A program made the translations under genes and the position numbers. A DNA stretch of 64,000 bases from Comamonas testosteroni TK102 (GTDB lineage: Bacteria > Pseudomonadota > Gammaproteobacteria > Burkholderiales > Burkholderiaceae_C): assembly GCF_000739375.1 (NCBI RefSeq), contig NZ_CP006704.1, positions 2,542,001 through 2,606,000 on the forward strand, in the 5' to 3' direction. The first letter of the stretch is position 1. Each line of letters starts with the position of its first letter. A model generated the notes under the pieces. That model saw only the letters and a list, made by a program, of their open reading frames with translations. It did no database searches and was not told where the DNA came from. This document shows positions 54,720-64,000 of this stretch, piece by piece.

Positions 54720-55934
54720 TCAGGAAGAGGCTTGCAGCCATTGCACCAGGGTTGCCGCGCCAATGCCGCCGGCTCCGGCAATGGCCGCCAGGCCGAGTGT
54801 GGCCTTGGGTGTCGATGACTGGGCCTGATACTCAAGCTGGGCCAGGCAGCGCACCAGAGCAATCGCGCCTGACGCGCCGATCGGGTGGCCGCGCGCCAAG
54901 CCGCCGCCCGCGCTGTTGATCTGCTCGGGCGCAATGCCCATGGCGGCGCAAAAAGCCAGGCCTTGCACGGCAAAGGCGTCATGCAGTTCGATGGCCGACA
55001 GATCCTGTGCCTTCAGCTGTGGGCTTGCCAATGCCTGGCTGCCCCTGGCCAGCACCATCTGGGCTGCTGCAATGGCGACCAGCAGTGGAGTTTCCGGCGC
55101 GGCGCCCACGCTGGCGCTGGCCAGCCATTGTGCGCGGGGCTGCAGATTCCAGCGGGCGCAGGCCTCGGGCGTGGCCAGCAGGACCAGGGCCGCACCATCG
55201 GCCTTTGCAGAGACGGTCAGGGGGCTGAGGGCGTGGGCGGTGATTTCGTCGACACTCGCACCCTCATAGCTGCCCCGGGCCAGCACCGGCATGCGCGCGG
55301 CACGAGCGGGCTGCAGCGCACGCGGATAGGCGTCGGCCGCAAGCCCTGCCACAGGCACGATTTCCTGGGCGAGCTGCGCCCGGGCCGCCAGGGCCCGGTT
55401 GTGGCTCAGCAGCGCATACTGCTCCTGCTGGCTGCGGCTGAAGCCATGCGTGAGCGCATAGTCGGCCGCCGATTGCAGCATATCGGGATCGCGCTCGGGA
55501 TCGGGGGCAAAGGGTGGGCGCTCGTAGCCCTGGGGGTGCTCGCCGGGGTGCAGCGGGCGGGTCTGGCGAATAGGGGCGCGGCTCCAGGCCTCGATGCCAC
55601 CGGCAATCATCACCTCCGCCTGACCCGATTGCAGCAGACCCACAGCCATGGCCACCGCATCCAGGCCCGAGCAGCACTGGGTATCGATGGTGTGCGCGGC
55701 GCAGCCGTCGGGCAGGCCGGCGGCCAGTGCCAGCATGCGCGCCGGGTTGCCGCCAGCGCCCAGAGCGTTTCCGATCACGACCGCGTCGACGGCGTGGGCC
55801 GGCAAGCCGCTTTGCTGCAGCAGTGACAGCAGCAGCGGCCGGCCCAGTTCATGGGGGCTGAGCCGAGCCAGGGCCGAGCCGATCGGAGCCACCGGGCTGC
55901 GGGCCCAGGCAATGATGGGGGTCTTGCTTGGCAT
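54720..55934 (-). CDS. thiolase-family acyl-CoA acetyltransferase
   Basis: 404 residues. Nucleophile C87 lies in TQCCSGLDAVAMAV, the catalytic His in GGGLARGHPIGASGA, and LHDAFAVQGLAFCAAMG fits the family. The usual second cysteine of the C-x-GGG-x-G motif is not seen: the C-terminal strand reads AIAGAGGIGAAT, with Ala where the proton-donating Cys is expected. Activity may therefore lean to one direction or substrate. It lies six bases after the AMP-ligase gene. BioY beside an acyl-CoA ligase and a thiolase also occurs in Bacillus (yhfU-yhfT-yhfS). Possible role in shaping an acyl-CoA precursor for biotin. Confidence 0.88.
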   Translation of the reverse strand: MPSKTPIIAWARSPVAPIGSALARLSPHELGRPLLLSLLQQSGLPAHAVDAVVIGNALGAGGNPARMLALAAGLPDGCAAHTIDTQCCSGLDAVAMAVGLLQSGQAEVMIAGGIEAWSRAPIRQTRPLHPGEHPQGYERPPFAPDPERDPDMLQSAADYALTHGFSRSQQEQYALLSHNRALAARAQLAQEIVPVAGLAADAYPRALQPARAARMPVLARGSYEGASVDEITAHALSPLTVSAKADGAALVLLATPEACARWNLQPRAQWLASASVGAAPETPLLVAIAAAQMVLARGSQALASPQLKAQDLSAIELHDAFAVQGLAFCAAMGIAPEQINSAGGGLARGHPIGASGAIALVRCLAQLEYQAQSSTPKATLGLAAIAGAGGIGAATLVQWLQASS

Positions 55935-55939
55935 GGGCC

Positions 55940-57451
55940 TCAACTCTGCCACGGCCGCAATGCGGGGAGCCGGGCAGGGGATATGCCCGCATCGGCAGGC
56001 GCTGTCATCCGGGCGCGCAGGGCCTGGGCCAGCTGGCCGTGGTCGGTCTTGCCGCTGGCTGTCTGTGGCCAGTGCTCGCAGATCCACCACTGGCGCGGCA
56101 CCTTGAAGGCTTCGGTGCGCTCGCGCAGCCACTGGTTCAGCTCCAGGGCCGAAGGCGCCTCGGTCTGGGGTCTCCATTGCAGCACCGCGTGTACCTGCAG
56201 ACCGCGCAGCGCATCGGCCTGGCCGTGCAGCGAGACCTGGGCAATCGCCGGGTGGCTGGCCAGCAGGTTCTCCACTTCCTCGGGAAACAGGTTCTTGCCC
56301 TGGGTGACGATCATGCGGCTCTGGCGTCCTGCCAGGCACAGCATGCCGCGTTCGTCGATATGGCCCATGTCGCGCACGGACAGCCAGTCACCGTCGCGCA
56401 GCACGGCCGTGGCGTCATGGGCATCGCCCACATAGTCCATGAACAGCATGGGGCTGCGGATATAGATCAGGCCGTCGCTGGCGTGGCTGGTGCCATGCTC
56501 GGCCAGCGCATTCTCGGCGGCATCGCTGCCGGTGGGGCGAATGGATAGCTCCACATTGCTGAATGGCCTGCCCACGGCCTGCGGGCCGCTGGCTTCGTCG
56601 GCATCCATCCAGGCCACAAAACTGGCCTCGGAGGCTCCGTAGAACTCGATGATGCGGGCCTGGGGGAACAGGGCGCGCAGCGCCGGCGTGTGGGCGCGCA
56701 TCCAGCGCGCGCCGCTGATGGTGATCAGTTCGACCTCGGGAATGGGTGCGAGCTGGCGATGCTCCGCCCATTGCAGCATCAGCAGCAACTGGCTGGGCAC
56801 GGCGACAAGGCAGGGCGTATCCCCGCCCGCCAGGGTCGCGAGACAGCGCGAGGCAGAGAACTTTTCCTGCATGACGGCGCCGCAGCCATACCAGATGCCT
56901 TGCATGGCCCCGAACAGAAACAGCGAGTGCGAGATGCGCCCTGGTGCCAGCGTGCGCTGGGCGACGACGGGGCCGAAATCCTGCAGGCCGACGCGAAAGC
57001 TTTCCGTCCACGACAGATGGTGGCGCTTGAAGCCCTTGGGCAGGCCGGTGCTGCCCGAGGTAAAGCCGGTATAGAAGGCGGCTGTCGGTGCTGCCGATTC
57101 CAGCTCGCAGGGCTGCCCGGGCAGCCAGCCTTCAATGCGCTGGCGCACGGCCGGCTGCCAGTCGGGGTCGGCGACCGCCGCGCAGCGGCCGCTGCGGATC
57201 ACGGCCAGAAAGTCCACCAGTCGCTCCAGGGTGGAGCGGCTGGCATCCAGCAGCAGCATCTGCGGCGCGCGTTGCGCCACCAGGCGTGCCGAGCGCAGCT
57301 CGACCTCCGCGTGCAGCCGGTCAAAGGTCCAGGAGTCGGCCTCGCTCTGCAAGGCCACCAGATCGGGTCGGTGCTGCGCCCAATAGGCCAGCGGGCCATG
57401 CACCAGTTGCCAGAAGCCTTGCAGCGGCGCGGCAGCGGACAGTGCCTTCAT
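55940..57451 (-). CDS. AMP-binding acyl-CoA synthetase-like ligase
   Basis: 503 residues of the ANL superfamily. The P-loop is TGFTSGSTGLPKGFKRHH (about residue 130), the A5 motif is EFYGASEASFVAW, A7 is VRDMGHIDERGM and A8 is GRQSRMIVTQGKNLFPEEVE. The C-terminal lysine motif PRQWWICEHWPQTASGKTD is present. It would activate a carboxylic acid as acyl-AMP and then acyl-CoA. Its ATG overlaps the bioY stop by four bases, tightly linking it to biotin uptake. Slightly shorter than long-chain acyl-CoA synthetases; substrate unknown (pimelate-like or fatty acids are guesses). Confidence 0.88.
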   Translation of the reverse strand: MKALSAAAPLQGFWQLVHGPLAYWAQHRPDLVALQSEADSWTFDRLHAEVELRSARLVAQRAPQMLLLDASRSTLERLVDFLAVIRSGRCAAVADPDWQPAVRQRIEGWLPGQPCELESAAPTAAFYTGFTSGSTGLPKGFKRHHLSWTESFRVGLQDFGPVVAQRTLAPGRISHSLFLFGAMQGIWYGCGAVMQEKFSASRCLATLAGGDTPCLVAVPSQLLLMLQWAEHRQLAPIPEVELITISGARWMRAHTPALRALFPQARIIEFYGASEASFVAWMDADEASGPQAVGRPFSNVELSIRPTGSDAAENALAEHGTSHASDGLIYIRSPMLFMDYVGDAHDATAVLRDGDWLSVRDMGHIDERGMLCLAGRQSRMIVTQGKNLFPEEVENLLASHPAIAQVSLHGQADALRGLQVHAVLQWRPQTEAPSALELNQWLRERTEAFKVPRQWWICEHWPQTASGKTDHGQLAQALRARMTAPADAGISPARLPALRPWQS

Positions 57452-58041
57452 CGGCGACCGCCAAAGCGCCAGTCCGGCAGACCGCGTGCCACTGTGTGAA
57501 CAATCAGTGCGCAGAGAATGCATTTGATGAAGTCGCCGGGCACAAAGGCCAGCGTCACGGCAAAAGCCTGGTTCAGGCTCATCTTGGCGATCAGCATCAG
57601 GCCCAGCACGCCAAAGGCATGCAGACACAGCAAGCCACCGAGCACGGAGGCGATGAAGGCGCTCAGTGCCGTGCGGCGCGGCGTGCTTTGCGGCAGGGCG
57701 GCCATGATGGCGCCTGTCACGGCGGCGGCCAGCGCATAGCCGATCAGATAGCCGGCAGAAGGTGCCATGAAAACGCCGATGCCGCCGCGGCCGCCCGACA
57801 GCAGGGGCAGGCCCACGGCTACGGCCGCGAGAAACAGCACCATGGATTGCATGCCGCGCCAGGGTCCGAGCATGACGCCTGCCAGCATCACGCCCAGCGA
57901 CTGGATGGTGATGGGCACGCCGAACGGCAGGTCGATCTTGGGAATCAGGCCCATCACGGCCATCAGCGCCGCAAACAGCGATACCTGGGCCATGGAGCGT
58001 GCGCCGCCGCGCGATACGGTGTGAGAGGGAGTGGTGGTCAT
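57448..58041 (-). CDS. bioY: biotin transporter S component
   Basis: 197-residue membrane protein with six helices. The BioY signature is ITIQSLGVMLAGVMLGPWRG, then VGLPLLSGGRGGIGVFMAPSAGYLIGY; AFVPGDFIKCILCALIV completes the family pattern. The S component captures biotin and works with BioM and BioN. ATG 58041 is used. The stop overlaps the acyl-ligase gene, and bioN lies ten bases upstream. Confidence 0.93.
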   Translation of the reverse strand: MTTTPSHTVSRGGARSMAQVSLFAALMAVMGLIPKIDLPFGVPITIQSLGVMLAGVMLGPWRGMQSMVLFLAAVAVGLPLLSGGRGGIGVFMAPSAGYLIGYALAAAVTGAIMAALPQSTPRRTALSAFIASVLGGLLCLHAFGVLGLMLIAKMSLNQAFAVTLAFVPGDFIKCILCALIVHTVARGLPDWRFGGRR

Positions 58042-58051
58042 CAACAGTCTC

Positions 58052-58645
58052 CTAGAAACCCAGTCTTGCCCAGAGGGCGTCGGCTACACGGCGCGTGGCC
58101 TGCAGCATATGAATCGTCAGCGGTGCAATCAGACGCAGGCCGCCGCTTTTGCCGGTGCGCAGCCGGTATGCTTCGTCCAGCTTCTTCCATTGCACAAAGA
58201 AATGCTCGGTAAAGCGCAGCATCAGCGCAAGCTGCATGGCCACGCGCTCGGTGGGGATGCCCAGGCGGGCCAGCGGGGCCAGCAGCCATTCCAGCACCTC
58301 GACCAGATCGCTGGGGCGAGTGGTCACGGTCAGCACAATGCCCAGAGTCGAGGCGCAGACCAGCCGCAGACTGCTGAGGGCTGCCAGCACCGGGTTGCCC
58401 ATGAAGACATGAAAGCCCGCCACCAGCAGCGCCGCGACGATGACCGAGTGCATCAGCCGGCGTGCCACCTGGGTGGCCTGGCCCAGCGATATCCATAGCA
58501 GCAAGCAGGCTGCGCCGCAGCCCGCCAGCACCCAGGGGCTGGCTATCAGGAACAGCAGCGTGCCAAAAACCGCCAGCAGCAGGAGCTTGAGGCCGGCCGA
58601 CCAGCGATGCAGCCAGGTCGCCACTTCGCTGTAGAGACTACCCAT
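58052..58645 (-). CDS. bioN: ECF transporter T component for biotin
   Basis: 197-residue CbiQ-family membrane protein with about five helices (LLLLAVFGTLLFLIASPWVL, VIVAALLVAGFHVFMG). The coupling helices include RPSDLVEVLEWLLAPLARLG and the region near TRRVADALWARLGF; the Ala-Arg-Gly type motifs of CbiQ are diverged. It overlaps the bioM gene by eight bases and completes the BioMNY complex. Symbol rests on family and context. Confidence 0.9.
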   Translation of the reverse strand: MGSLYSEVATWLHRWSAGLKLLLLAVFGTLLFLIASPWVLAGCGAACLLLWISLGQATQVARRLMHSVIVAALLVAGFHVFMGNPVLAALSSLRLVCASTLGIVLTVTTRPSDLVEVLEWLLAPLARLGIPTERVAMQLALMLRFTEHFFVQWKKLDEAYRLRTGKSGGLRLIAPLTIHMLQATRRVADALWARLGF

Positions 58646-59387
58646 GCAGGTCTCCGTGGGAGATTTTCTGCATCAGCTGCTCCCGCACGGAGGTCTCGTA
58701 GGCCCCGCAGATGTCGCGGCCCGGACCATCGCCGCGCAGCCGGCCCTGCTCCAGCCAGATCACGCGTTCGAAGTCGCGCACATGATCGAGCACATGGGTG
58801 GAGACCAGCACCTGTTGCGGTGCGGCAGCGATATCCTGGGCCAGAAGGGCCTGCCCGGGCAGGTCCAGGCTGGCAAAGGGCTCGTCCAGCAGCAGCAGCT
58901 GGGGCGCGGCAATCAGCAGCGAGAGCCAGCACACCTGCTGGCGCTGGCCCTGGCTCAGGCTGCTGACGGCCCGCTCGGCCCAGTGGGCCATGCCGCGTGC
59001 GGCCAGCAGCTCGCGCGCCCTGGCTCTGGCCTGCTGCTTGTTCAGACCCTGGGGGCGCAGGCCCAGGGCCAGCTCTTCCTCCACCGTGGGGAAGATGATC
59101 TGGTCGTCCGGGTTCTGGAACATCAGGCCGATCAGGCCCGGCCGGTTCTGGCGGGCCTGCAGCAAGGGCATGCCATCCACCAGTACCTGTCCGGCCTGGG
59201 GCTGCTCAAGTCCGCAAAGCAGGCGGAACAGGCTCGATTTGCCTGCGCCGTTGTTGCCGATCACGCCGATGCGCTTTTGCGCCAGGCTCAGGTTCAGGCC
59301 GTCGAACACCTGGGTCTGGCCGCGCTGCAACCGTATGTCGACCAGCTGCACGCCCTGTTGGGTGGGGCTTTGCAAGCCGTCGCTCAT
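58638..59387 (-). CDS. bioM: ECF transporter ATPase for biotin
   Basis: 249 residues. Walker A GNNGAGKSS at 44-52, Q-loop LMFQNPDDQIIFPTVEEELAL (the CbiO-like NPDDQ), signature SLSQGQRQQV and Walker B LLLLDEPFASLD. The NPDDQ-x-x-F-P-T pattern is characteristic of ECF ATPases. ATG 59387 starts the conserved domain. First gene of the six-gene minus-strand operon bioM-bioN-bioY-ligase-thiolase-nitroreductase. A perfect 15-bp palindrome lies about 210 bases upstream. Confidence 0.93.
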   Translation of the reverse strand: MSDGLQSPTQQGVQLVDIRLQRGQTQVFDGLNLSLAQKRIGVIGNNGAGKSSLFRLLCGLEQPQAGQVLVDGMPLLQARQNRPGLIGLMFQNPDDQIIFPTVEEELALGLRPQGLNKQQARARARELLAARGMAHWAERAVSSLSQGQRQQVCWLSLLIAAPQLLLLDEPFASLDLPGQALLAQDIAAAPQQVLVSTHVLDHVRDFERVIWLEQGRLRGDGPGRDICGAYETSVREQLMQKISHGDLHG

Positions 59388-59595
59388 GCGCCAGCTCCTG
59401 CTGCAGCAAGGGCAGGGCTGAAAGACGCCGGGCTGGAATGTGGATGGCAAGGAGCGAAAAGGGCTGACATACGGGGAGAGTCTGAAACTGTGCCCCGGCT
59501 TCAAACATGCGAGGCAGCGTTGGTGGCGGATTCTAGCGCTGTGAATTTGCTTTCAAAAGACTGCCATCTGAGCTCTTTTTATGTGAATTTCCTAT

Positions 59596-60005: not shown

Positions 60006-62150
60006 CTAGAACTGGTAGCTGAGGCTGGTCCCGGCCATCCATTGACGTCCCGGGGCAGGTTCGTAGTAGCGGCCCTCGGGCTTGGTCGCTTCGTTGACGA
60101 TGACCGAGCCCACATAGTTCTTGTCCGCCAGATTGTCGACGCGGGCAAAAGCACTGAGTTTCCAGGCGCCCAGGCGCCGGGTGTAGCCAACGCTCAGGCT
60201 GGCCACGTTGTAGCTGGGGGCGTAGACCTGGTTCTTGTCGTCAGCGGCAATACGGCCCACATGACGCCAGTCCAGGCCCACACGCCAGTCGGTGGCGGGA
60301 AGCCATTCCAGTCCCAGGTAGCCCAGATGCCTGGCCGTGCCGGCAATGCGGTTGCCGGCGGGAATGCAGTCCTGGCCCTTGCTGTCGCAATAGCCGCTGC
60401 GCAGGCTGGCGTCGAGCAAGGTCAGCGCGCCGTTCAGGCGCAACTGGGGCATCAGCCAGGTGCTGGTGCTCAGCTCCATGCCGCGGCGGCGGGTTTTGCC
60501 TGCGTTCTGATAGGAGGCGCGGCCACTGTCGTTGCTGGCCACCACGATTTCATTGTCGGTCTGGGTCTGGAACAGCGCGGCAGACCAATCGCCGCGCAGG
60601 CCGGCCACATTGAAGCGTTGCTTGATGCCCAGCTCGGCACTGGTCGATACCGCAGGCTTGAGGCCGAAGTTCAGGCCGCCCACCAGATCGGGGCGGTACG
60701 AGATCTCGTTGAAGGTCGGTGTCTCCATGCCGCGACCCAGCGAGGCATAGATATTGGTGTCCTGATTGAGCTCGTGCTGCAGTGAAACAACCGGCAGCAA
60801 CTTATGGAATCCAGCATTGCCGCTATCGTCCTTGTCAGCCAGGAAATGGTCGCGCGATTGGAACTGCACATTGCTCCAGCGCAGGCCGGCATCGAGCTTC
60901 CAGCGCGGGGCAAAGGCCCAGGAGGCTTGTAGATAGGGGTCGATGCTGGTGAGGGTATTGCGCTCGTCGCGCACCAGCTCGCCGACCACGCCCAGCTGGT
61001 TGCCGACAAAGTTCTTGTAGCCCTGGCGATCTTCCCTGACGGTATTGGCAGCCAGGCCGGCAATCAGGCCCAGGCTGCCGCTGCCCAGCTCGTACTTGCC
61101 GCTCCAGCGTGCATCGATGCCGCCATAGTCGCGCTTTAGGCCGATCACCCCGCCTTTGTACTTGTCCTCAAGTTTGCTGCTGGGAGGGATAGACTGAAAC
61201 TGCATCATTTCACGCTGACCGGCATAGGCCATGAGGCGCAGCGCCTGGCCTGCACCAAGCTCGCGCTCATAGGTCAGGCCGGCCTGGGTCTGCTTCACGC
61301 TTTTGCGCGAGTTCATTTTGATCGCATTGGCGTTGACGTCCTTTGGATTGAGGGCCCATTCGCTGGGTTTGATGCCGCCGGGGTCCTTGGCATCGATGTC
61401 CACATGGTTGGCGACCAGGGTCAGCCGGCTGTATTCGTCGGGCCTGACATCGATACGGGCGTTGAACAGGTTTTTGTCCGCTGCGCTCTGGGCTCGGTAG
61501 CCGTCGGTGAGAAAACGGCTGGCGCTGAGCACATAGCCAATCCCGTTGGCTTCGCCCTTGGCCTTGAGCCCCAGTCGCTTCTGGCCGTCGCTGCCCAGCG
61601 CAAAGCTGCTTTCCACCGAGGGCGCACCCTCGCCGCGTTCGGTATAGGCGTTGATCACGCCGCCAGAGGCGTTGCCGTAGAGCGCGGAGTAGGGGCCGCG
61701 CAGCACCTCCACTCGCTCCAGCGAGGCGATATCGATATTGTTGGTCTGGCCCTGGCCATCGGGCATGGTGGAGGGGATGCCGTCCACATAGATCTGTATG
61801 CCGCGCACGCCGAAGGTGGAGCGCGCGCCAAAGCCGCGAATCGACAGCTGCAGGTCTTGCGCGTAGTTCTGGCGGTTCTGCAGTTGCAGGCCCGGAGCTG
61901 CGCCCAGGGACTCCGAGAGATTGACCTGCAGATTGCGCTCGCGCATGCGCTCGCCATCGAGCACGGTGACGGAGGCTGGGGTCTGCTCCAGTGCAGACTG
62001 CTGCAAGGTGCTGCGCACGGTGACTTCGGACAGCTGGGGCAGGTCCGGCTGGGCGGCGGCTTGCTGGGCCAGTGCGGACTGTGCCGTCAGCAGCAGTCCG
62101 GCGGCGGCCACAGGCCAGCCTGCCAGATGGCAAAGACGCGAAAAATGCAT
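60006..62150 (-). CDS. TonB-dependent outer-membrane receptor
   Basis: 714 residues. Signal peptide (VAAAGLLLTAQSALAQ), TonB-box-like SEVTVRST and plug with LSIRGFGARSTFGVRGIQI and RVEVLRGPYSALYGNASGG. The 22-strand barrel ends in WMAGTSLSYQF. The NLADKNYVGSVIVNEA segment near the C-terminus resembles receptors for iron chelates and cofactors. No STN domain, so no surface signalling. ATG 62150 is used. It is divergent from the TPP-riboswitch operon, sharing about 310 bases of upstream DNA with an 18-bp palindrome. The ligand is unknown; thiamin or a related compound is conceivable from the neighbour only. Confidence 0.9.
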   Translation of the reverse strand: MHFSRLCHLAGWPVAAAGLLLTAQSALAQQAAAQPDLPQLSEVTVRSTLQQSALEQTPASVTVLDGERMRERNLQVNLSESLGAAPGLQLQNRQNYAQDLQLSIRGFGARSTFGVRGIQIYVDGIPSTMPDGQGQTNNIDIASLERVEVLRGPYSALYGNASGGVINAYTERGEGAPSVESSFALGSDGQKRLGLKAKGEANGIGYVLSASRFLTDGYRAQSAADKNLFNARIDVRPDEYSRLTLVANHVDIDAKDPGGIKPSEWALNPKDVNANAIKMNSRKSVKQTQAGLTYERELGAGQALRLMAYAGQREMMQFQSIPPSSKLEDKYKGGVIGLKRDYGGIDARWSGKYELGSGSLGLIAGLAANTVREDRQGYKNFVGNQLGVVGELVRDERNTLTSIDPYLQASWAFAPRWKLDAGLRWSNVQFQSRDHFLADKDDSGNAGFHKLLPVVSLQHELNQDTNIYASLGRGMETPTFNEISYRPDLVGGLNFGLKPAVSTSAELGIKQRFNVAGLRGDWSAALFQTQTDNEIVVASNDSGRASYQNAGKTRRRGMELSTSTWLMPQLRLNGALTLLDASLRSGYCDSKGQDCIPAGNRIAGTARHLGYLGLEWLPATDWRVGLDWRHVGRIAADDKNQVYAPSYNVASLSVGYTRRLGAWKLSAFARVDNLADKNYVGSVIVNEATKPEGRYYEPAPGRQWMAGTSLSYQF

Positions 62151-62465
62151 GTGAATATCTCTGGGGCTTGAGGGGGCGTTGGCTGCCCTGGATGATTTGC
62201 AAGCGTCTGCTGACACAGTCCATTACCGCGACACGCCGCGCTTTCAGGCATGGCGCATATGCGCCATTGCCGGCGCCGTGGCAGGTTGCGTCTCAGGCAG
62301 CTTGCGGTGCTGGGGCGATTGTATTTGGGCAGCAGTGTTTTGATGTTTTTGCCCTGGATGTCCTTCTTGCCCGTGCTGGAGCCTTACCCCAGGTTACAAG
62401 TGACGCGACTTTCATGCACCGGCTCCGGGCCCTTGAAGCGATGCCGTTGGGGTAAGATGGCGCCG
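62151..62465. other. upstream region shared by the TonB receptor and the riboswitch operon
   Basis: 315 bases without a gene. It contains the 18-bp palindrome at 62250-62267. No cobalamin-riboswitch pattern was seen on the receptor side. Confidence 0.55.
62250..62267. promoter_or_regulatory. perfect 18-bp palindrome
   Basis: ATGGCGCATATGCGCCAT, about 100 bases upstream of the receptor ATG and about 200 bases upstream of the riboswitch. It could be an operator for the receptor promoter. Regulator unknown. Confidence 0.45.
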
Positions 62466-62540
62466 CGCTCCGGGGTGCACGCCAGTGCTGAGATCTACAC
62501 CCGCGAACTTGACCCGGTTCATACCGGCGGAAGAAGAGCT
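62466..62540 (+). promoter_or_regulatory. TPP riboswitch (THI element)
   Basis: The conserved parts occur in order. GGGGTGC (62473-62479) is followed by a very short P3 (GCAC-GCCA-GTGC) and GCTGAGA (62488-62494). ACACCC then pairs with GGGGTG to close P2. GAACTTGACC and CCGGTTCATACCGGCGG form the P4/P5 arm, and GAGC at 62537-62540 pairs with GCTC at 62468-62471 for P1. The two TPP-contacting signatures (CTGAGA and the GCGG end of P5) are intact. It precedes a LuxE-like gene, an unusual target. Confidence 0.9.
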
Positions 62541-62584
62541 TGCAAGCTGACCTCAGGGCAGTGCGTTCTCGCATGGTCAGCAAG

Positions 62585-62616
62585 CCTTCGGAGCATGATG
62601 TCCCCGCTCTCGAAGG
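62585..62616 (+). promoter_or_regulatory. Shine-Dalgarno-sequestering hairpin of the TPP riboswitch
   Basis: CCTTCG-GAGC (62585-62594) pairs with GCTC-(T)-CGAAGG (62606-62616), giving a ten-base-pair stem with one bulged T. The AAGG of the ribosome site for the LuxE-like gene is in its 3' arm. GCTGACC (62547-62553) can pair with GGTCAGC (62575-62581) just before it. This fits translational control: TPP-bound aptamer allows the hairpin to hide the ribosome site. Confidence 0.75.
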
Positions 62617-62622
62617 AATTTC

Positions 62623-63717
62623 ATGGACAAGGCCGCTTCGATGGTCGCCGATCTGCTTGCTTTCATCGCAATGGATGACTGCACCGACGACCAGTTCAAT
62701 CAACTCGCCCTGCGCCTTTTCGCCTACCAGTACGAATGCAATGCGCCGTTTCGCAGCTTTTGCCAGCGACGCGGTGCCACGCTGCGCAATGTCAGGAGCT
62801 GGCGCGATGTTCCGGCCGTGCCCATCGATGCCTTCAAGGCCATGGAGCTGCGCAGCGAGCCGCCATCGCCCGCCGAGCGTGTGTTCATGACCAGCGGCAC
62901 CACAGGCCGCGCCGCACGCGGACGTCATTTCCATCCGCAGCTCGATGTCTACGACCTGTCCATGAAGCGCTATTTCGCCAGACGTTTCATGCAGGGTATG
63001 GAGCGCATGCCCATGGGCATTCTGTTTCCCGATGAGCAGGCCATGCCCAATTCCTCGCTGGCCCACTATCTGGCCCTGGCGCGGTCCGAATTCGGCTCGG
63101 CCGGCAGCCGCTACTATCTGAACTCGGAAGGGCTGGACATGCCGGCCCTGTGTGCCGCGCTGGAGGCGTCCGAGCGCAGCGGCCAGCCGTTTGCGCTGCT
63201 GGGCGCGAGCTTCAGCCTGGTCCATGTCATGGATGCCCTGCGTGAACAGGGCCGCAGCTTTCGCCTGCCTGCAGGCAGCCGGGTGCTGGATACGGGCGGC
63301 TACAAGGGGCAGTCGCGCGAGCTGCCGCTCGAGCAGTTCTATGCCGGGCTTTCACAGCTGCTGGGCGTGCCGCGCAGTCTGTGCATCAATATGTATGGCA
63401 TGACGGAGCTGAGCACCCAGTTCTATGACGATGGCAATGCGGTACTGCCTTCGGTCAAGTCTGGTCCGCACTGGATTCGCTCGCGTCTGGTCGAGCCGAT
63501 CACCGGCCGTGACGTGGCAGCTGGTGAGCGCGGCATTCTGGTGCATTGCGATCTGGCCAACTACAACGCGGTGACCACCATCCTGACCGAGGATGTGGGC
63601 CTGTGGGCCGGCACGCAGGAAAAAGACGGCTTTTTGCTGCTGGGGCGCGCCGAGGGCGCCGCCGCCAAGGGCTGCTCGCTGGCGGTTGAAGAGTTTGTGA
63701 AAGCTGCCGGCGCATGA
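62623..63717 (+). CDS. LuxE-like acyl-protein synthetase
   Basis: 364 residues, the length of LuxE. Adenylate-forming motifs are FMTSGTTGRAARGRHFH (about residues 88-104), LDTGGYKGQSRELPLEQFY and INMYGMTELSTQFYDD. The C-terminal KGCSLAVEEF places a cysteine at 351, near the end, where LuxE enzymes carry the acyl group. It would activate a carboxylic acid with ATP, hold it as a thioester and hand it to a LuxC-type reductase. AAGGAA precedes the ATG inside the riboswitch hairpin. Its stop overlaps the next gene (ATGA). No luciferase genes are in view, so light production is not implied. Confidence 0.88.
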   Translation: MDKAASMVADLLAFIAMDDCTDDQFNQLALRLFAYQYECNAPFRSFCQRRGATLRNVRSWRDVPAVPIDAFKAMELRSEPPSPAERVFMTSGTTGRAARGRHFHPQLDVYDLSMKRYFARRFMQGMERMPMGILFPDEQAMPNSSLAHYLALARSEFGSAGSRYYLNSEGLDMPALCAALEASERSGQPFALLGASFSLVHVMDALREQGRSFRLPAGSRVLDTGGYKGQSRELPLEQFYAGLSQLLGVPRSLCINMYGMTELSTQFYDDGNAVLPSVKSGPHWIRSRLVEPITGRDVAAGERGILVHCDLANYNAVTTILTEDVGLWAGTQEKDGFLLLGRAEGAAAKGCSLAVEEFVKAAGA

Positions 63718-64000
63718 GCGAGCAGCGCAAGCTACAGCGTATCAAGGCAGGCTATCTGCCCGGCCTCGCCGACGATGAAGTGCAGTGGCAGACGCTGGGC
63801 TTCGAGTCCCGCGACGGCCAGAGGCTGGAAGTCAGCGTGCCCGTGCTGACGGCGCCGCAGATGCGGGCTCTGGCTGCTCGCGTGCGCGCGGCTGCGTGTG
63901 TCCATCTGCGCTCCATGCCGGTGGCCGAGATCATCGATGCCGTCGATCGTGCGATGGCCCGCCTGCTGAATCGCAACGACATCTACCGTCAGCAGGCCGA
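63714..64000 (+). CDS. LuxC-like acyl-CoA/acyl-protein reductase, N-terminal part
   Basis: The first 95 residues are in the window. Sequence such as LTAPQMRALAARVRAAACVHLRSM-like helices followed by IIDAVDRAMARLLNRNDIYRQQA matches the start of acyl-CoA reductase (LuxC) proteins, in which the D-x-x-x-x-x-YR segment precedes the NADPH-binding core. The ATG overlaps the stop of the LuxE-like gene, so the products are made together, as in the lux fatty-acid reductase. It would reduce the bound acyl group to an aldehyde. The catalytic cysteine lies beyond the window. Confidence 0.8.
   Translation, partial: MSEQRKLQRIKAGYLPGLADDEVQWQTLGFESRDGQRLEVSVPVLTAPQMRALAARVRAAACVHLRSMPVAEIIDAVDRAMARLLNRNDIYRQQA

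Follow-up and report, generated by a model that had tools for sequence, protein, structure and literature searches.

Why would a thiamin pyrophosphate (TPP) riboswitch stand in front of genes for a LuxE-like acyl-protein synthetase and a LuxC-like acyl reductase? This arrangement lies at the end of a 64,000-nucleotide stretch of the Comamonas testosteroni TK102 genome (contig NZ_CP006704.1, positions 2,542,001 to 2,606,000; hereafter the window). The original prediction, made from the letters of the window, held that the two enzymes salvage an oxidised thiamin fragment: thiamin acetic acid, thiazole acetic acid or a carboxy-pyrimidine. Such salvage proved to be the best fit to the genomic context, and we consider it quite probable that the operon is a TPP-riboswitch-controlled salvage system for oxidised thiamin pyrimidine. 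The features in question are the following:

62461..62552, + strand: TPP riboswitch aptamer (THI element, RF00059); cmscan match to the full model (1-105), 51.4 bits, E 3.6e-9
62585..62616, + strand: predicted hairpin, CCUUCGGAGC / GCUC-CGAAGG, from the minimum-energy fold
62623..63717, + strand: gene for a luxE-like acyl-protein synthetase of 364 residues; PF04443, 72.3 bits
63714..64000, + strand: gene for a luxC-like acyl reductase, of which the first 95 residues lie in the window; PF05893, 266.7 bits for the full protein

Is the element a genuine TPP aptamer? When a 601-base stretch was searched against all Rfam families, the RF00059 match covered the full length of the model in both sequence and structure with a significant E-value, although its score falls about 3 bits short of the RF00059 gathering score (54.3). 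A default Rfam scan of the window, which applies the gathering threshold, does not list the element, and a lowered threshold reveals it. The complete THI element that had been proposed upstream of luxE is thus present; only its proposed start, 62466, falls 5 bases inside the match. In the TK102 genome (one contig, 6.06 Mb), RF00059 finds four matches, the luxE aptamer among them (E 8.6e-9), the others being located before thiC, before a cytX-like permease gene and where a thiO-type/thiG stretch begins. Six of the 11 luxE aptamers of the same family (TK102 included) reach the gathering score. In a structural alignment of the TK102 aptamer with 10 relatives, 11 of the 19 base pairs have changed on both sides with pairing kept in at least one row, an effect mostly owed to one divergent row.

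Downstream of the aptamer, the predicted hairpin takes in most of the Shine-Dalgarno bases (62613-62617) and is probably the off-state of the expression platform: plentiful TPP would fold the aptamer and close the luxE ribosome-binding site, resulting in repression. The element CTTCGGAG is found in most of 27 luxE leaders; its pairing partner occurs in leaders of the Comamonas type and not in those of the Bordetella/Achromobacter type. The whole luxE leader is no more stable than shuffled sequences (z 0.42), so that the case for the hairpin comes from its position and its partial conservation.

What do the two enzymes resemble? Their genes overlap by 4 bases, and luxC, completed from the genome, runs past the window to L005:5181 and encodes 488 residues. 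Both proteins are well above their Pfam cut-offs (24.9 bits for PF04443 and 21 for PF05893), in keeping with the predicted LuxE-like and LuxC-like identities. The sole sequence relative of LuxE in the PDB is the LuxE chain of the fatty acid reductase of luminous bacteria (7xc6_E, E 8.1e-28), and LuxC matches the LuxC chain of the same structure (7xc6_A, E 1.3e-13). Cys351, near the C terminus of LuxE (63673-63675), aligns with the GCSL motif of LuxE (GCS being matched in 7xc6_E) and is invariant in 12/12 and 19/19 aligned rows; Cys302 of LuxC, in a YDQQxC motif, aligns with its counterpart in 7xc6_A and is invariant in 26/26 rows. We take the former to be the acyl acceptor and the latter to be the catalytic residue. 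Note that the LuxE assignment depends on sequence, since the predicted structure is mediocre (mean predicted local distance difference test score, pLDDT, 71.0) and the 50 fold matches listed for it do not include 7xc6; the best of them come from PaaK-type acyl-CoA ligases and from phenazine biosynthesis.

In luminous bacteria, the same two families, with aligned catalytic cysteines, convert an acid into an aldehyde (PDB 7xc6; a lux operon is represented in our set by locus L128). The LuxE proteins have nevertheless strongly diverged: in scans of the order and the phylum, other LuxE proteins score 67-88 bits, against at least 547 within the subfamily. The operons also differ, the one studied here having a TPP aptamer, a gene for a short-chain dehydrogenase/reductase (SDR) and a vitamin-type transporter, while luxA, luxB and luxD are not beside its genes. 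As had been predicted, there is no luciferase gene in the vicinity: no luciferase family was detected among the neighbours scanned with Pfam, the rest of the genome not having been searched for one, and luxA/luxB are not adjacent to luxE-luxC among the scanned or annotated neighbours.

LuxE and LuxC might nonetheless have nothing to do with thiamin and supply a fatty or some other aldehyde, the link to the riboswitch being indirect; the names given to the proteins in databases point that way (long-chain fatty acid--CoA ligase, and acyl-CoA reductase tagged with bioluminescence). However, the curated NCBIfam equivalogs are far from being reached (fatty-acid LuxE, NF052244: 76.9 bits against a cut-off of 550; fatty-acyl LuxC, NF052251: 74 against 750), the operon holds thi genes and vitamin-type transporters, and the aptamer is retained across phyla, which leaves this explanation highly improbable.

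How constant is the association of the aptamer with these genes? A sample of 120 genomes of the same family, TK102 included, contains 12 with a LuxE relative, and the aptamer is found upstream of luxE in 11 of these 12 loci (TK102 included), the twelfth being that of G093 (see below). For the wider survey, we built a custom covariance model from the 11 same-family aptamers. The scan of the named genome collection gave 419 confirmed stretches, the best 80 of which were analysed: the custom model, which matches its source genomes by construction, detects an aptamer before luxE or thiD-luxE in 79 of them, the remaining locus (L120) beginning inside thiD at a contig edge. With the same model, an aptamer was found in all seven further loci from the order and phylum scans. 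Finally, 27 plasmid records encode a LuxE of this subfamily; in all eight that were examined, two of which share an identical LuxE, RF00059 itself is matched upstream of the operon, over the gathering score in seven and below it, at 49 bits, in Priestia. By contrast, the custom model matches nothing in three loci whose LuxE proteins are of the other kind (67-88 bits); one of the three, L128, is a light operon in which two luciferase-type genes (read by eye) lie between luxC and luxE. In every locus examined that includes the upstream stretch, the subfamily pair thus keeps its aptamer; L128, a true lux operon without the element, has a far more distant LuxE.

The gene order is likewise conserved. 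Among 99 loci (92 with distinct luxE DNA, eight ending at a contig edge before the last gene), luxE, luxC, ATPase, permease, binding protein and SDR genes follow one another in this order in 89 of the 91 with room for them (83/85 without duplicates). The survey that had been proposed thus confirms the riboswitch-luxE-luxC order and adds that ATP-binding cassette (ABC) transporter genes and an SDR gene follow luxC. The exceptions are G093 (see below) and L127, which has luxE-luxC-SDR only, the form also seen in Pantoea dispersa.

The transporter genes vary among Bacillota. Plasmids of Lactiplantibacillus plantarum and Levilactobacillus brevis carry an aptamer followed by genes for an NCS2 permease, LuxE, LuxC and SDR; LuxE and permease are 100% identical between a 10 kb L. 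plantarum plasmid (L134) and a 21 kb L. brevis plasmid (L135), which points to recent transfer of the cassette among food lactobacilli. Niallia taxi has two tandem TPP aptamers (L136:5778-6074; 85 and 72.9 bits), then thiW, NCS2 permease, luxE, luxC and SDR genes. All six genes are present on the Priestia megaterium plasmid; a 27-row tree (many forks of which are unresolved) places its LuxE outside the supported clade that Bacillota and Bifidobacterium rows form, as would be expected of transfer. Many Bacillota relatives of the lactobacillar LuxE, and one from Bifidobacterium, bear the database name CoF or coenzyme F390 synthetase, probably a misnaming.

What might be the substrate? The four genes that follow luxC in TK102, beyond the window, encode the ATPase and the permease of an ABC transporter, a binding protein of the NMT1/THI5 type and an SDR. 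We infer the following relay. Import of 4-amino-2-methylpyrimidine-5-carboxylate or a close relative would fall to the ABC transporter and its binding protein of ThiY/THI5 fold; LuxE would adenylate the carboxylate and hand the acyl group to its own C-terminal cysteine; LuxC would use NADPH to reduce this thioester to the aldehyde, and the SDR would reduce the aldehyde to the alcohol, 4-amino-5-hydroxymethyl-2-methylpyrimidine (HMP), which ThiD would phosphorylate for thiamin synthesis. Among the three substrates first proposed, we favour the carboxy-pyrimidine because ThiD occurs in some of the operons, ThiC is missing from most genomes with such thiD-bearing operons, the relevant kinases are mostly missing and the binding protein has the ThiY fold. 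Indeed, this protein has the NMT1/THI5 domain, and its best fold match is 3ix1, the ThiY that binds N-formyl-4-amino-5-aminomethyl-2-methylpyrimidine (FAMP), at 17% identity. A shared fold is not a shared ligand: the protein also matches the fold of thiamin-bound 4nmy.

The enzymes could also run in reverse and act on a pyrimidine antivitamin, which they would oxidise or detoxify, the LuxC and SDR reactions being reversible in principle. This reading is given very little credence: LuxE spends ATP toward activation of an acid, according to the established chemistry of its family, and the other TPP aptamers of the genome precede thiC, thiO/thiG-type and cytX-like genes.

The thi genes in and around the operons bear on the branch of thiamin synthesis concerned. 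ThiD is encoded between aptamer and luxE in 11 of the 80 named loci, as well as in L027 and L125 (three checked with NCBIfam), and eight of these 11 continue past the SDR gene with thiE or thiO/thiG, the contigs of the other three ending earlier. ThiC was sought in 50 of the 80 named genomes, namely all 11 with thiD in the operon and 39 others: it is missing in 8/11 and 2/39, respectively (Fisher 1.2e-5). G355 (98% complete, no ThiC) encodes in a single run thiD, luxE, luxC, the ABC genes, SDR, thiE, thiO, thiS (identified by eye) and thiG.

These genomes also lend themselves to a different account, in which a heteroaromatic acid made inside the cell, rather than thiamin waste, is reduced to HMP in a ThiC-independent route. 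G110 and G355, which have ThiD and ThiG and no ThiC, fit it, as do the ThiC-less Ramlibacter genomes, and neither Pantoea nor G761 has a transporter gene adjacent. Against it, the importer is present in 89 of the 91 loci with room, and lactobacilli and Niallia have a different importer in its place; we therefore regard an internal acid as very unlikely.

Salvage of an oxidised pyrimidine also has to be weighed against salvage, by the same logic, of a thiazole or thiamin acid, in which thiazole acetic acid would give 5-(2-hydroxyethyl)-4-methylthiazole (HET) or thiamin acetic acid would give thiamin. The chemistry would be identical, the Niallia operon includes thiW, whose family we take to be a thiazole transporter, and the match to thiamin-bound 4nmy would suit a thiamin-like ligand. 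The use of either product, however, calls for kinases that most of the cells lack. In 19 genomes with luxE (G093 included), ThiD was found in 18, ThiG in 18, ThiC in 15 and ThiM, which HET requires, in three. As for thiamin, which also requires a kinase, thiamin pyrophosphokinase was found in none of the 19 and ThiK over its cut-off in none, other kinase families not having been searched; ThiK matches below the cut-off occur in five, that of G761 being strong at 232.7 bits. Through the known kinases, therefore, neither HET nor thiamin could serve most of these cells, whereas 18 of the 19 could use HMP. Moreover, ThiG is retained, and the gene that is missing beside thiD-bearing operons is thiC. 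The thiazole and thiamin acids are thus disfavoured, and we hold this explanation to be unlikely.

Several observations weigh against the pyrimidine salvage that we favour. First, seven of the eight ThiC-less genomes with thiD in the operon are named Ramlibacter, and six of the eight are metagenome bins of untold completeness (the two isolates are R. montanisoli and R. monticola), so that the eight are not independent and may reflect one loss, or gaps. Second, ThiC is present in most genomes with luxE (15/19; 40/50 of the named genomes), so that the carboxypyrimidine route would usually be a supplement, and the 120 genomes of the family sample show no significant link between ThiC and luxE (9/12 versus 58/108, Fisher 0.22); ThiD, for its part, is required for de novo thiamin synthesis as well. 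Third, the frame of the TK102 SDR gene (L005:7901-8705, past the window end) is interrupted at a G run, whether through an error in sequencing or as a genuine lesion; intact copies are present in relatives. Fourth, the binding protein is nearest by sequence to 3qsl, a structure of unknown ligand, 3ix1 ranking fourth in one sequence search and being outside the seven matches of another, and its best NCBIfam match is SsuA-type, all SsuA-type matches being below the cut-off. For the NCS2 permeases, the top-scoring family is that of xanthine permeases (below cut-off), and the general purine/pyrimidine cut-off is passed; the closest relative of the lactobacillar permease outside luxE operons (in the plasmid collection), from Paracoccus, adjoins an 8-oxoguanine deaminase gene, so that membership of the NCS2 family is by itself no proof of a thiamin pyrimidine substrate. 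The Niallia operon, in addition, contains the ThiW gene. Finally, in G093 (L019/L030; a genome bin 55% complete) a luxE whose product is 44% identical to that of TK102 has no aptamer in the approximately 227 bases before it, and neither luxC nor an SDR gene lies in the 1.9 kb downstream; with no luxC beside it, this lone gene does not amount to the luxE-luxC pair without a THI element, and it perhaps has a different role or is a remnant or part of a mis-binned contig.

Is such a route known? No account joining LuxE/LuxC with thiamin salvage was found among the titles and abstract openings listed for the open-access literature, in line with the original prediction, to which no description was known, and the main text of PMC3766115 does not mention LuxC. 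Three known systems come close. ThiXYZ transporters are under TPP control, and the salvage that couples ThiY (3ix1) with TenA and YlmB has in common with the operon an NMT1/THI5-like binding protein fold and HMP as end product; it proceeds by aminomethyl hydrolysis instead of the carboxylate reduction proposed here, and neither TenA nor YlmB was seen among the annotated neighbours of the operon, no dedicated search having been made. CytX, a thiamin-regulated HMP permease, has a counterpart in TK102, where a cytX-like gene (L007:5453-6957; 230.7 bits, below the CytX cut-off of 309.85) likewise lies behind a TPP aptamer. Unlike the luxE-luxC route, CytX would import ready-made HMP, with no reduction needed.

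The third system is the EhpF-EhpG-EhpK phenazine operons. EhpF and EhpG reduce a ring carboxylate, and the phenazine biosynthesis structures among the fold matches listed for the LuxE model (3hgu, 3hgv and 3l2k) are, we presume, EhpF. These operons serve antibiotic synthesis and are not known to be under TPP control; like luxE-luxC-SDR, they bring together an AMP-binding protein, a member of the aldehyde dehydrogenase family and an SDR. Such a trio, in which EhpF is the AMP-binding protein and EhpG belongs to the aldehyde dehydrogenase family, is described for a phenazine operon in PMC11278526, and a ring hydroxymethyl group in griseoluteic acid in PMC3175449.

We lean towards the broader view that the operon encodes an undescribed relay of LuxE, LuxC and SDR from carboxypyrimidine to HMP, spread by plasmids between Pseudomonadota and Bacillota and replacing ThiC as the HMP source in bacteria that lack it, the oxidised pyrimidine being a vitamer traded in nature. 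If so, a vitamin B1 salvage route would lie behind a class of proteins that are currently called fatty-acid ligases and bioluminescence reductases and that occur in many bacteria of soil, plants and food, and LuxE/LuxC chemistry would gain a role in cofactor metabolism. The source of pyrimidine would be explained for ThiC-less isolates with an intact thiazole branch, and carboxy-pyrimidine would merit measurement alongside other B1-related compounds in soil, plants, urine and food.

Elsewhere in the window, a gene for a TonB-dependent receptor (60006-62216) is divergent from the operon; its top NCBIfam match is PqqU (826 bits, below the cut-off of 1200). Minus-strand genes for BioY, a CbiQ/EcfT-type protein and an ATPase at 57448-59504 form a biotin transporter of the energy-coupling factor type, which is adjoined by genes for an AMP-binding enzyme and a thiolase at 54720-57628.
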